A DNA stretch of 64,000 nucleotides from assembly GCF_003254525.1 (NCBI RefSeq), contig NZ_QFYS01000002.1, positions 62,001 to 126,000 on the forward strand, in the 5' to 3' direction. The notes under the pieces are model-generated. The model was not told where the DNA came from and made no database searches. It saw only the letters and a program-made list of their open reading frames with translations. The translations under genes were made by a program, and so were the position numbers. The stretch's first letter is position 1. Each line of letters begins with the position of its first letter. Origin of the DNA: Phenylobacterium kunshanense (GTDB lineage: Bacteria > Pseudomonadota > Alphaproteobacteria > Caulobacterales > Caulobacteraceae). Below, in pieces: positions 20,926-27,295 of this stretch.

Positions 20926-21202
20926 TCAGCTTCGCCGATCCTGGGCGCCGTGCCAGATGCGAACGATTTCGACGGTCTCCGGGCGGATCCGGTAGACGAT
21001 GACGTAGGGCCAGATCAGGCTGATCTCCCGGGTCCCGGACACCAGCCCAGGTCTCCCACGTTCGGGAAGGTGCTCAAGGGCGTCGCAGGCGGCGATGATC
21101 TGGATGGCGACCCGGGACGCCGCCGCCGGATTCTGATCTCCGATGTAGGCGCGGATTTTCGATTAGGTCCGCCAGCGCCGCGGGTGAGAAGACTACGGGC
21201 AT
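20926..21202 (-). pseudogene. RelE/ParE-family toxin gene with +1 frameshift
   Basis: Read on the minus strand, the first 15 codons give MPVVFSPAALADLIE. After one extra A in the AAAA run (plus-strand TTTT at 21156-21159) the next frame continues for 76 codons to TGA. That part begins IRAYIGDQNPAAASRVAIQI and ends with IWPYVIVYRI and VEIVRIWHGAQDR, textbook ParE features. The length of 277 bases is one more than 92 codons. Removing one A restores a 91-residue ParE-like toxin. It overlaps the antitoxin gene by 10 bases. It could be a real inactivation or a sequencing error in a homopolymer. Confidence 0.8.
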
Positions 21203-21366
21203 TCCGGCGGGGCGGTTTCCTTGTCCGTACCCCAGGAGAGGAGCCAGCGCCGTACCTTCTCGTAGGAGACGCCACGCCCCCGATCGAGAGTCTCTAGGCC
21301 CTTCTCCACGGCGCTGACGAAGGCCGCTGCGTCCTCGGCTTCGGGCTTGGGGGTTGGCTCGGACAT
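21193..21366 (-). CDS. Putative antitoxin of the ParE-type pair
   Basis: The 57-residue product (EDAAAFVSAVEKGLETLDRG, then VSYEKVRRWLLSWGT) resembles short antitoxins that accompany RelE/ParE toxins. It ends inside the start of the toxin gene, the usual overlap. Translation may instead start at GTG 21381, which has a better Shine-Dalgarno (GAGGAG) and would add 5 residues. Either way the gene begins 11-26 bases after the dnaE2 stop, so it may be transcribed with the SOS cassette. Confidence 0.7.
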   Translation of the reverse strand: MSEPTPKPEAEDAAAFVSAVEKGLETLDRGRGVSYEKVRRWLLSWGTDKETAPPECP

Positions 21367-21392
21367 TCCGAAATCTAACACGATCAAGCTCC

Positions 21393-24300
21393 TCAGTGGA
21401 AATCCCGGCTGCGGATGAGGCGGCCGGTCACCCGGTTGTGCGCCGCCACTGGAGCCTCGTCTTCGCGCAGTTCGGACAGCCGGTGCGACAGGTCGGTGAA
21501 GCGTTCGGCCACCACATGGATCACCTCGCCCTCCTTCTGCACCTGGCCGTGGACGACCAGGAACGAGGCGCCCATCACCAGCCGCCGGTTGGCCTCGAAG
21601 GCATCGCGCCAGACGACGAGGTTGGCGATACCGGTCTCGTCCTCCAGGGTCAGGAACACCACCCCCTTGGCGGTGCCCGGCCGCTGGCGGACCAGCACCA
21701 GCCCGCCCACGGAGAGGCGGCGGCGATCGCGCGCCGTCTTCAGCGCCGCGCAGGGGACCGCGCCCATCCGCGCCAGGTCTTCCCGGAAGAAATCCATGGG
21801 ATGAGCCTTCAGTGACAGGCTGGTGGTCCGGTAGTCCTCGGCCACGCCTTGCGAGGCGGTCATGAATGGCAGCGGGACCTGGGTCTCCTTCAGGTTCTGC
21901 CGGAGCAGCAGGGGCGCGTTCCGCTCGGCGTCCCATTCGCCGGCCAGCCCTTTCACCGCCCACAGCGCCTCGCGCCGCGAAAGGCCCAGGCTGCGGAAGG
22001 CGTCGGCCTCGGCCAGGAGCTCCAGCGACCGGCGCGACAGCCGGCCCCGGCGGGCGAAGTCCTCGACGCTGCGCGCCCCCATCTCGCGCGCCTTCACCAG
22101 CGCCTCGCCGTCCGCCTGCTTCAGGCCCTTGATCTGCCGCAGGCCCAGGCGGACGGGCCGCAGCCGCTCCCGCGGATCGTCCTTTTCCTCGAGCGTGCAG
22201 TCCCAGTCGCTGAACATCACGTCGGGCGGCCGGACCTCCACTCCGTGCTCGCGCGCGTCCCGGACCAGCTGGGCGGGCTGGTAGAAGCCCATCGGCTGGC
22301 TGTTGAGCAGGCCCACACAGAAGGCGTCGGGGTGATGCTTCTTCACCCAGGCCGAGGCGTAGACCAGCAGGGCGAAGCTGATGGCGTGGCTCTCGGGGAA
22401 GCCGTACGAGCCGAAGCCCTCGATCTGCTTGAAGCACCGTTCGGCGAAGTCGCGGTCGTAGCCGCGCCGCACCATCCCCTCCACGAACTTCACGCCGTAT
22501 TCGCCCACCGTGCCAAGGTTGCGGAAGGTGGCCATGGAGCGCCGCAGGCCGTCGGCGTCGTCGTCCGAGAACTCGGCGCCCACGATGGCCACCCGCATGG
22601 CCTGTTCCTGGAACAGCGGCACGCCCAGGGTCTTGCCCAGGATCGACTTCATCTCGTCCTGCGGGAAATCGGGGCCCGGCTTGGGGTAGGTCACCGGCTC
22701 GATCCCGTCGCGGCGCTTCAGGTAGGGGTGGACCATGTCGCCCTGGATCGGGCCCGGCCGCACGATCGCCACCTCGATGACCAGGTCATAGAACTTCCGC
22801 GGCTTCAGCCGGGGCAGCATCGACATCTGCGCCCGACTCTCCACCTGGAACACGCCGACGGAGTCGGCGTGGCAGAGCATCTCGTAGACCTCCGGGTCCT
22901 CCTGGGGCAGGTCGGCGATGTCGACGACCCGCCGGCCAGCGATCGGCGGCAAGAGGGCGAAGCTCTTGCGCAGGGCGCTCAGCATGCCCAGCGCCAGCAC
23001 GTCGACCTTCATCAGTCCCAGGGCATCGATGTCGTCCTTGTCCCACTCGATAAAGGTGCGCTCGGCCATGGCCGCGTTGCCGATGGGGACGGTCTCGTCC
23101 AGGCGACGCTTGGTCAGCACATAGCCGCCCACGTGCTGCGACAGGTGGCGCGGGAAGCCCAGCAGCTCCTGCGCCAGGGCCGTGGCCCGGCGGATCTCCG
23201 GCGCGGTGGGATCGAGGCCGCACTGGCGTATGTGCTCGTCCGGCACGCCGTCGCCGTAACTGCCCCAGACCGTGCCGGCCAAGGCGGCGGTGATGTCCTC
23301 GGTCAGGCCCAGCGCCTTGCCCACCTGGCGGATCGCCATGCGCGGCCGATAGTGGATCACCGTCGCCACGATCGCCGCCCGCTCCCGGCCATAGCGGCGG
23401 TAGACGTACTGCATCACCTCCTCGCGCCGCTCGTGCTCGAAGTCGACGTCGATGTCGGGCGGCTCGCCGCGTTTCTCCGAGATGAACCGCGAGAACAGCA
23501 GGTCCTGGTCCGGCTTGGTGGGGTCCACCGCCGTGATCCCCAGGCAGAAGCAGACGCAGGAGTTGGCCGCCGAGCCGCGCCCCTGGCAGAGAATTTTCTG
23601 CTCCCGCGCCCAATGGACGATGTCGTGGACGGTGAGGAAGTAGTTCGGGAAATCCAGCTTCTCGATCAGGTCCAGCTCGTGGGCGACCAGCCCGCGGACC
23701 TTCTCGGGCACGCCGTTCGGATAGCGCCACTCCGCGCCGGCCCAGGTCAGGTCCCGCAGGTGCTGGATGGCGGTCTTGCCCGGTGGCACGGGCTCGTCGG
23801 GGTATTCGTAGCGGAGCTGGCCCAGGTCGAAGTCGATCCGCCCGGCGATCTCGGCGCCCCGTTCCACCGCGCCCGGGAACCTCGCGAACAGGCGGGCCAT
23901 CTCGGCCGGGGACTTCAGGTGGCGTTCGGCGTTGGCCGCGAGGCGCAGGCCCGCCTCGTGGATTGTGCAGCCTTCGCGGATGCAGGTCAGCACGTCCTGC
24001 AGCGGCCGGCGTTCGGGGCCGTGGTAGAGCACGTCGTTCACCGCGGTCAGCGGCGCGCCCGACGCCTGCGCCAGGGCCGCGAGGCGCGAGAGCCGGTCGA
24101 GGTCGCGGGGGCCATAGCGCCGCGCCGCCGCCAGCCAGACATCTGGCAATTCCCGCGCGATCCGGGCCAAGTCGGCCTCAAAGCCTGCGTCCAGTCGCTC
24201 GGGCGGGACCACCAGCACGAGCTGTCCCTCGGCGTGGTCCAGGTAGTCGCGCCAGCGCAGCTCGCAGCCGCCCTTCTCCGCCCGTCTTTGGCCCAGGGTC

Positions 24301-24596
24301 AGAAGTCGCGTCAGCCGCCCATAGGCCTCCCGGTCGGACGGATAGACCAGCAGGCTGGGCGTGCCGTCAGCGAAGTCCAGGCGGCAGCCGGTCAGCGCCC
24401 GCACGATCACGCCCTGGTCTTCCAGGTCGCGCATCTGCCGCCAGGCGCGCACCGCCCCGGCCAGGCTGTTGCGGTCGCAGATCCCGATCGCCTCCAGCCC
24501 CAGCGCCGCCGCGCCGGTCACCAGCTCGTGGGGGTGCGAGGCGCCCTGCAGGAACGAGAAGTTCGAGGCCGCCTGCAGCTCGGCGTACCGGGTCAC
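21393..24596 (-). CDS. dnaE2: Error-prone DNA polymerase DnaE2
   Basis: DnaE2 is the second alpha subunit of the C family and does translesion synthesis with ImuA/ImuB. The 1067-residue product shows the PHP domain start ([21 protein letters not shown]), the palm motif [20 protein letters not shown], and the [18 protein letters not shown] and [15 protein letters not shown] segments. A C-terminal OB-fold region follows. The start is GTG 24596: it overlaps the upstream VOC stop (GTGA), and the family N-terminus begins there. The frame is open further upstream only in antisense or other-frame sequence. Confidence 0.96.
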
Positions 24597-24997
24597 GTGA
24601 GGTCCGTGAACGGGTTCCAGGCCACCTCCCAGAGATTGCCTTCGGGATCGGCGAAATAGCCGGAATAGCCGCCCCAGAAGACGTCCTGCGGCTGCTTCGT
24701 CGCCGTGGCGCCGGCAGCCAGGGCCTGGGCGAAGACGCGGTCCACTTCCTCCTTCGACGGGGCGTTGTGCGAAAGGACAACCCCCTGGAAGCCGGAGCCT
24801 CCGGCCGTCACCTGGGCGTCCTCGGCCTGGGCCTCGCGCGGGAAGAGGCCAAGCCAGGTCCCTTCCAGGGCGAACATCACCATGTCGTCGCCGGGCGTGT
24901 AGTTGTGCGTCGGGAAGCCGAGGCCGTCGCGATAGAAGGCGATCATCCGAGGCAGGTCGCGGGCGCCCAGGGTGATCAGGCTGATCTTGGGTTTCAT
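24593..24997 (-). CDS. VOC-family (glyoxalase/bleomycin-resistance fold) protein
   Basis: The 134-residue protein has two beta-alpha-beta-beta-beta units: [20 protein letters not shown] with [15 protein letters not shown], and [20 protein letters not shown] with [19 protein letters not shown]. The conserved Glu in the last motif is a typical metal ligand. Substrate unknown. It lies between imuB (8-base gap) and dnaE2 (4-base overlap), so it should be part of the SOS transcript. I know the standard cassette as imuA-imuB-dnaE2, without such a gene. Confidence 0.9.
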
Positions 24998-25005
24998 CTG
25001 AACTC

Positions 25006-26556
25006 CTATCCGAACAGGCCGTGCAGCCACCATTTCGGCGGGGCTGCGGGATCGCCGTAGAGGCCGGCGCGGAAAACCCAGAACCGCGCGCCGTCCTGGT
25101 CCTCCACCCGGTAGTAGTCGCGCACATGGACGACCGAGACCTCCTCGATCCCGCGCCGCCACCATTCCTCGCCGATCCGTTCGGGCCCCTCGGCCCGGCG
25201 CACCTGGTGTGTCCGGCCCCGCCAGCGGAACTGGCGGGGCGGGTCGTCGGGGGTGAGGGCCATCACCTGCTCCAGCGGTTCCGGCCGGCGGAACAGGCGT
25301 ACGGGCCGCGGCGCTTCGGGATTCCAGGTCCGGGCCTCCTCCTTCGACCCGCCCAGCGGAGGTTCGGCGCGGACCGAGCGCTCGGGCACATGGCTTTCGA
25401 CGGGGACGGCGCGCCAGACCCGGGTCGGTCCCAGGCGGTTGGCCAACCGGTCGACCAGGGCCGCCAGCCCCTCCTCGGCCGCCGCCGCGTCGCCCCCGGC
25501 GATCCGCCCCTGGCGGCCCGAGACCGCCTCCACCGCATAGGCGGCGATGGTCACCGACTCGACGCCGAAGCCGGGATCGACGGTCTCCAGCTTCGGCTGG
25601 AACAGACGCGCGATGCGACGGGCCTCGCGCCCGGCCAGCGACAGGCCGACCGCCAGGCTGGGCGCCTTGCCGTCCACCCGGTGGAAGGCGATCTCGAACC
25701 GCCGCGCCCCCCGACCCTCGGCCTCCAGGCGGGCGCAGAGTTTAGCCACCACGTCCTCGGTGACCCGCGCCATGTCCTCGGGCGCGCTGATCGGCTCGAA
25801 GAAGGCGAGGCGCGCGACGTAGGGCGTCGGCGGGCGGCGGAAGGCCAGGGCCTCGGGCATGCGGCCCAGGGCCTGGTCCAGCCGCATGAGCGTCGCCGCT
25901 CCGAACCGCCGGCCCAGGGGCGCGCGGGGGATATCCATGAGCTGCTCCAGCCGGCGCAGGCCCAGCCGCTCGATCTGGGCGGCGGCGTCGGGGTCCAACC
26001 GCAGGGCGGCCGGCGGCAGGGGCTTCAGCAGGGCGGCCTGCCCGTTCGGCGGAGCGATGGTCCCGTCCCGCCCATGGTGCGCCAGGGCCCAGGCGGCGCC
26101 CGGCGTGTCGGCGATCGTCAGGCGGAACAGCAGGCCATTGGCGAGGAGCCGCACGCGCAGGTCGGCCATAAGTTCGGCCTCGCCGCCCCACAGGTGCGCC
26201 ACGCCGCTGATGTCGAGGAAGAGGCCATCGGGCGGGTCCGCCGCCACCGCCGGGGAGAAGCGCACGCACCAGTGGACCAGCTCGGTCAACGCCGCCGCGT
26301 CCGCCTCGGGTTCGGCGTCGGCGGTCGCCAGCTCCGGAACCAGGGCCGCGGCGTCGGTCGCCTTCTGCCCGACCCGAAGCCCCAGACGCGCCGCCTCCGG
26401 GCTCACCGCTGACAGCCGCCGGACCTGGCGCACCGTTTCGATCAGGGCGAACGGGGCCTCAGGCGGCGTGTCGGTCTGGGGCCCGTTCGCGTTCGCTCGC
26501 CGGCGCCAGTTCGCGATCGCCCACAGGGGCGACCAGGCGCAGAGGATGCGCGACAT
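25006..26556 (-). CDS. imuB: ImuB, Y-family polymerase-like translesion factor
   Basis: ImuB is a catalytically inactive Y-family relative that links ImuA and DnaE2 to the beta clamp. The 516-residue protein starts [19 protein letters not shown]. It has the palm remnant [20 protein letters not shown], HhH-like [20 protein letters not shown], and a long Pro/Arg-rich C-terminal part ending in [21 protein letters not shown]. Start 26556 matches the family; upstream codons in frame lie within imuA. It overlaps imuA by 98 bases. Confidence 0.95.
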
Positions 26557-27262
26557 CGCCTGCCTCCCATGAATAGGCCCCCTGGGCCTCCAGGATCCAT
26601 GCGCCGGGCCGCCCGCCCCGACAGCGTTCCAGCGCCACCTCGAACCGGGGCGCGCCCAGGCCGAACGTCCCCTCTGCCGGCTCGGACGGCGCCGAGGCCA
26701 CGCGCCAGCGGGTGGCGGCCACCGACCCCGCGGCCTCCTTGCGGCCCGCCCCGCCATAGGGCCGCCGCTTCAGCACGAAGGCCGTGCCGCCGTGCCGCTC
26801 GCAAGCCAGCTGCAGCCGCCGGCCGGCGGTGAGGTCCACCGCCTCCACCTCGCCGAACACCGCCGAGACGCCGACCGTCCCCAGGGCGTCCTCCATCACC
26901 GACAGCGCCTCGGCCTCGTCGCGGGCGCAGACCTGGATCAGGCGTCCTGACGGAAAGCCAAGGCCGGCGAGCCCCGGCGCCCACAGGTCGTCCCGCCGCA
27001 ACACCCAGACCGCCTCGCCCCGCCGGGCCAGCGGCGCCGCCGCCAGCGCCGCGAAGGCCGCCGGCGCAGCCGAGGTCTCGGCCTCGATCCCGCCCGCCGT
27101 CACCTCATGCCAGCGCCCCAGTGGCAGGCCGCCGCCGGGCAGCCGCGCGTCGATCTCGGCGCTGCCGAACGGCAGCACGCCAGCCTCCGCCCGCCCCGCA
27201 CTCTCAAGGGCGGCGATCTTCGCCCGCATGACGGCGAGCCGCCTGCCGCGAAAATCGGACAT
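26459..27262 (-). CDS. imuA: ImuA, SOS-induced mutagenesis protein
   Basis: The 267-residue protein is the RecA/SulA-like partner of the ImuB-DnaE2 mutasome. It begins RGRRLAVMRAKIAALESAGR and has LPFGSAEIDARLPGGGLPLG, then WVLRRDDLWAPGLAGLGF and LKRRPYGGAGRKEAAGS. The C-terminal 30 residues are charged and unrelated to the core. ATG 27262 is 18 bases from a perfect LexA box, so this is the first gene of the cassette. Confidence 0.93.
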   Translation of the reverse strand: MSDFRGRRLAVMRAKIAALESAGRAEAGVLPFGSAEIDARLPGGGLPLGRWHEVTAGGIEAETSAAPAAFAALAAAPLARRGEAVWVLRRDDLWAPGLAGLGFPSGRLIQVCARDEAEALSVMEDALGTVGVSAVFGEVEAVDLTAGRRLQLACERHGGTAFVLKRRPYGGAGRKEAAGSVAATRWRVASAPSEPAEGTFGLGAPRFEVALERCRGGRPGAWILEAQGAYSWEAGDVAHPLRLVAPVGDRELAPASERERAPDRHAA

Positions 27263-27280
27263 GGCTTTGGGACTCCTTTT

Positions 27281-27295
27281 GTTCCAGTTTTGTTC
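27281..27295. promoter_or_regulatory. LexA (SOS) box GTTC-N7-GTTC
   Basis: The exact alphaproteobacterial LexA motif GTTC-N7-GTTC lies in the 70-base gap upstream of imuA, with its nearest edge 18 bases from the start codon. This is direct sequence evidence for SOS control of imuA-imuB-VOC-dnaE2. Confidence 0.92.

Follow-up and report, generated by a model that had tools for sequence, protein, structure and literature searches.

SOS regulons are usually viewed as sets of repair, polymerase, division-arrest and mobile-element genes. The closest described system to the locus reported here is the SOS mutagenesis cassette imuA-imuB-dnaE2 (imuABC), as found in, for example, Caulobacter crescentus (PMC1839093; PMC3901139). 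A second point of reference is SidA, a 29 aa, SOS-induced division inhibitor of Caulobacter (PMC4211646).

The cassette of interest lies in the window, the whole 64 kb stretch of Phenylobacterium kunshanense DNA that was analysed. It is like C. crescentus imuABC in its gene order, in its LexA control, and in having three intact mutasome genes. However, it differs in that an intact gene of the VOC superfamily lies between imuB and dnaE2. No papers linking VOC or glyoxalase genes with either imuB or LexA were found in the open-licence papers searched. The most probable reading of the VOC gene, set out below, is that it belongs recurrently to SOS regulons.

The imuA-imuB-VOC-dnaE2 cassette and its LexA box

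Open reading frames, together with Pfam and NCBIfam matches, give the minus-strand order LexA box, imuA, imuB, VOC, dnaE2, in agreement with the original prediction for this DNA. The three mutasome genes—imuA, imuB and dnaE2—lie on one strand, in the gene order of imuABC. The features are as follows (all minus strand):

27281–27295: LexA box, 18 nt 5' of the imuA start codon; it reads GAACAAAACTGGAAC on the coding strand.
26459–27262: imuA; open reading frame with an NCBIfam ImuA_translesion match (8.7e-13, under the curated cut-off) and an order kept in relatives.
25006–26556: imuB, Y-family polymerase-like, with IMS and DUF6504 domains (Pfam) and a conserved N terminus.
24998–25005: imuB–VOC gap of 8 nt with a GGAG ribosome-binding site, seen in the sequence; the layout is repeated in other VOC-bearing cassettes.
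24593–24997: VOC-superfamily gene, 134 aa (Pfam Glyoxalase, 4.8e-18; AF2 pLDDT 91.8; dN/dS 0.17–0.24).
21393–24596: dnaE2 (imuC), error-prone polymerase with a GTG start seen in the sequence (Pfam; NCBIfam PRK05672, 1436 bits).

The original prediction placed all four genes within 8 bases of one another, by overlap or gap. This stands for (i) the imuB–VOC gap of 8 nt, in which the GGAG site comes straight after the imuB stop codon, and (ii) the 4 nt overlap between VOC and dnaE2, where the VOC stop and the dnaE2 GTG start share the predicted GTGA. It does not stand for imuA and imuB, which overlap by 98 nt (26459–26556); this overlap is supported by the position of the ImuB N terminus, since alignments begin at residue 1 in most relatives. 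Most relatives differ from the window here: their imuB runs directly into dnaE2, the two genes sharing ATGA.

The LexA box 5' of imuA, also part of the prediction, was recovered at 27281–27295. A box is kept within 250 bp in every readable imuA upstream region of Phenylobacterium (86/86), and lies at −32 to −37 from imuA in the VOC-bearing cases printed. Taken alone, the box pattern occurs in the 64 kb window at chance level (2 matches versus 1.26 expected). In the window's genome, the extended motif GAACAAAANNNGAAC is present at nine sites, versus zero for a reversed control. It is the conservation across imuA upstream regions and the nine-to-zero count of GAACAAAANNNGAAC, rather than the pattern count, that make the cassette's LexA box convincing. 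At least two of the other GAACAAAANNNGAAC sites precede what we take to be radical-SAM repair-type genes. Here and throughout, LexA boxes are motif matches.

Distribution and history of the VOC gene at the imuB–dnaE2 junction

A survey of imuB–dnaE2 intervals, proposed as a check in the original prediction, covered 100 Phenylobacterium genomes (many of the assemblies being metagenome bins), 91 of which contain dnaE2. Of these 91, 16 have a VOC gene between imuB and dnaE2, counting the window's own and including the isolate P. aquaticum; the gene is thus present at this position in relatives. It was seen in none of 58 cassettes with a readable imuB from other Caulobacteraceae genera. Where present, it starts 8–48 nt past the imuB stop codon, and nearly every case has an AG-rich ribosome site. 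The dnaE2 start is no more than 28 nt from the VOC end in 14 of the 16 cassettes (the remaining two have extra sequence there), and the 4 nt overlap recurs in four relatives. Median pairwise dN/dS is 0.17–0.24 for VOC, 0.35–0.40 for imuB and 0.24–0.27 for dnaE2. These values indicate that the junction VOC is intact and under purifying selection, which is stronger than that on imuB.

The VOC-bearing cassettes are scattered on the dnaE2 tree (14 changes), clustering no more than in shuffles. This scatter requires many losses or transfers, and most species can do without the gene. In the VOC tree, 11 of the 16 junction VOCs fall into one clade, and a single origin within Phenylobacterium is compatible with the data (one-clade p-AU 0.32); 134 aa are too short for the tree to separate one origin from several within the genus. 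The history of the gene would combine one or more old captures with later losses, and perhaps some exchange between cassettes. One genome (G051) carries a deletion remnant of VOC at the junction, consisting of 12 residues joined to FNPFTGLA. By eye, G051 is the only such case among the empty junctions; the others hold palindromic repeats or nothing.

Some candidate explanations were tried and rejected. Recombination around VOC as the cause of the scatter finds no echo in the imuB 3' and dnaE2 5' flanks of VOC-bearing cassettes, which are not unusually alike (P 0.08–0.49). As for a plasmid or a phage origin of the gene, plasmid homologues all have less than 60% identity, and there is one weak phage match.

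Beyond the family, the imuB–dnaE2 junction of G578, a distantly related alphaproteobacterium, also holds a VOC gene, with 49% identity. The G578 cassette is diverged and has a LexA box of its own before imuA. Among the six genomes of its genus, the other five are without VOC at the junction. G578 apparently represents a second capture of VOC at the same junction.

Several further observations concern the junction itself. Palindromic, REP-like dispersed repeats of about 115–310 bp fill it in several species (L113, L120, L128, L132, L145, L165, L166, L178). Three loci—L205 (G023), L247 (G163) and L260 (G187)—contain junction open reading frames that we take to be antisense cupin-like, GxxExxY-like and DUF559-like. 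One genome (G002; L122, L138) apparently has two imuB–dnaE2 cassettes, one with VOC and one without. In another (G032; L202), a second, divergent cassette has a gene for an AlkB-like 2OG-Fe(II) oxygenase (PF13532, E=1e-18) at its imuB–dnaE2 junction.

LexA-linked relatives and the candidate role of the VOC protein

The VOC family is common in bacteria without linkage to an SOS cassette. Some of its members have LexA boxes of their own. Among nine free-standing close orthologues in Phenylobacterium, which sit away from the cassette, five have a consensus box 35–64 bp 5' of their start (P=6e-10; the remainder of these loci predicts 0.04). Within 65 bp of the start, such a box is also found for 4 of 47 homologues from other alphaproteobacterial families (0.09 expected; P=3e-6), with the P values overstating the number of events because loci within one genus are non-independent. 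No box of this kind was found for six more distant paralogues, and no convincing gamma-, actino/Firmicutes- or cyanobacterial-type LexA boxes were found 5' of VOC genes in other phyla. The VOC tree needs 11 or more changes in SOS linkage.

A further arrangement occurs in 16 Phenylobacterium genomes, in which a VOC paralogue is divergent, across a LexA box, from a ~30 aa sidA-like open reading frame and dnaE1 (L027, L029–L031, L312–L320, L324, L326, L327). We take this short frame upstream of dnaE1 to be SidA-like on the basis of size and context. Lying after a LexA box and 5' of dnaE1, it looks like Caulobacter SidA, and differs in having a divergent VOC paralogue as its neighbour. The LexA box between the two may serve the sidA-like frame only.

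Five lines of evidence—position, tight spacing, the LexA box, purifying selection, and the recurrence of the VOC family at other LexA boxes—underlie the reading of VOC as a member of the SOS regulon, which it very probably is. Boxes are found both before the operon and before orthologues standing elsewhere. The predicted production of VOC together with the SOS mutagenesis operon is supported at the level of sequence by its occurrence in relatives, its spacing, its conservation, and the independent links of its family to LexA boxes. This support does not extend to the further prediction that the protein would be produced exclusively under DNA damage.

The original prediction also allowed that VOC could be a passenger, riding the operon at an insert-tolerant junction with no damage-related role. 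Such tolerance would account for the unrelated material at other imuB–dnaE2 junctions (repeats, various open reading frames, the AlkB-like gene), for the patchy distribution of VOC, and for the remnant in G051. It sits poorly with purifying selection exceeding that on imuB, with coupling-type spacing, with the boxes of free-standing orthologues (including those in other families), and with the apparent second capture in G578. We consider a passenger unlikely, and this option is now the weaker alternative, with patchiness still in its favour. Comparing the promoters that an odd operon member has elsewhere is a way to distinguish it from a passenger, and VOC is probably a genuine part of the Phenylobacterium damage response rather than a stowaway. 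That the protein works directly with ImuB/DnaE2, for example as an adaptor or as a lesion- or nucleotide-processing subunit, is very unlikely: some orthologues stand alone, apart from the cassette, members of the family are widespread in bacteria that show no such linkage, and most Phenylobacterium cassettes are without VOC. Such a partnership would nevertheless fit the placing of VOC between two mutasome genes, seen in two lineages far apart, its translational coupling to dnaE2, and the paralogue beside dnaE1 in 16 genomes. Distinctly unlikely, too, is the reading of this VOC subfamily as a recurrently recruited, so far unrecognised SOS effector of alphaproteobacteria that would take a direct part in translesion synthesis, its target being lesions, damaged nucleotides or the ImuB/DnaE2 complex; its repeated position next to DNA polymerase III alpha genes would then reflect a physical or metabolic partnership.

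Membership of the VOC superfamily is indicated by the Pfam Glyoxalase match, by a confident AF2 model, and by Foldseek. The best PDB match of the model, 3bqx (TM 0.84–0.87, 29% identity), is a glyoxalase-related protein from Fulvimarina pelagi; this closest solved structure is a structural-genomics type entry with no stated function. Damaged nucleotides or alkylating toxins, named in the original prediction as what the protein could act on, are candidate targets. Where a function has been described for fold neighbours, it is mostly drug binding: the mitomycin/bleomycin-binding MRD, and the antibiotic-binding TnmS1 and TioX, outrank Escherichia coli glyoxalase I by fold. The mitomycin-binding MRD of Streptomyces (PDB 1kll, 2a4x) has the VOC fold in common with the window's protein (TM 0.78–0.82), and the Trp108 residues of the two proteins align. 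The two differ in sequence (about 21–23% identity) and in the SOS linkage of the window's VOC. In MRD, Trp108 takes part in drug stacking. Across 68 VOC homologues, Trp108 and Glu124 are invariant.

The label "metal-binding", attached to the protein in the original prediction, did not hold up. No histidine is invariant among the 68 homologues, the expected first metal-ligand position is hydrophobic, and Glu124, at the last ligand position, is the sole invariant residue at a metal position; the usual three-ligand metal site is thus not conserved. The same residues bear on whether VOC is an enzyme of the glyoxalase or FosA kind, performing the metal- or thiol-dependent removal of a damage-produced electrophile such as an aldehyde. 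The VOC fold and Pfam family, weak FosA-family profile matches and Glu124 point towards such an enzyme, but given the hydrophobic first-ligand position and lack of an invariant histidine we judge it very unlikely. With FosA glutathione transferases, the protein has the fold and the weak profile match in common; it differs in that scores are about ten times under the curated cut-offs, and in that the canonical metal histidines are not conserved.

The fold and the invariant Trp108 suggest that VOC may bind or detoxify a DNA-damaging small molecule. Likeness in fold to drug-binding proteins names no ligand, and FosA-like enzymes match too; we regard a role in ligand binding or detoxification as an evenly balanced call. 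The account that we put forward for the VOC gene as an SOS-regulon member is that (i) in some Phenylobacterium, the imuA-imuB-dnaE2 operon, which LexA controls, would have captured a functional SOS-regulon VOC gene, (ii) DNA damage would induce this gene together with the translesion mutasome, by co-transcription, and (iii), less certainly, its product would act as a small-molecule binder or detoxifier and not as a polymerase subunit, keeping down the amount of a DNA-damaging compound or of its by-products during lesion bypass by DnaE2. Taken as a whole—captured, co-induced, and binding or detoxifying a small molecule—this is the account towards which we lean slightly. A protein with a small-molecule-binding fold appears to have been repeatedly wired to LexA, in two lineages within a mutagenesis operon. 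Such wiring suggests that, in some bacteria, tolerance of damage goes together with clearance of the chemical that causes it or of its by-products, and the 134 aa protein, with P. aquaticum as a cultured host, offers a concrete gene in which to test this.

Toxin–antitoxin remains downstream of dnaE2

Two features follow dnaE2 in the window (both minus strand):

21193–21366: open 57 aa reading frame in the antitoxin position; single copy in the genome, with a 67% homologue after dnaE2 in the relative G013.
20926–21202: ParE-type toxin gene, frameshifted near its 5' end (about 21154–21160); the C-terminal piece matches PF05016 (3.1e-15).

The 57 aa frame has its ATG 26 nt past the dnaE2 stop, the position at which an antitoxin gene had been predicted; its position agrees, but its identity as an antitoxin gains no family match from Pfam or NCBIfam. 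With a ParE-family toxin split by a frameshift next to an open frame in the antitoxin position, "toxin-antitoxin remains" is a fair description of this DNA. The frameshift could be an assembly error. In G013 (L132), the same antitoxin-like frame and a ParE-type toxin gene are found directly after dnaE2, and here the toxin is cut by a nonsense codon. An intact ParE toxin, as in ParDE, is present at neither locus, and the lesions in these two cases, the only ones seen, differ: a frameshift in the window and a nonsense codon in G013.
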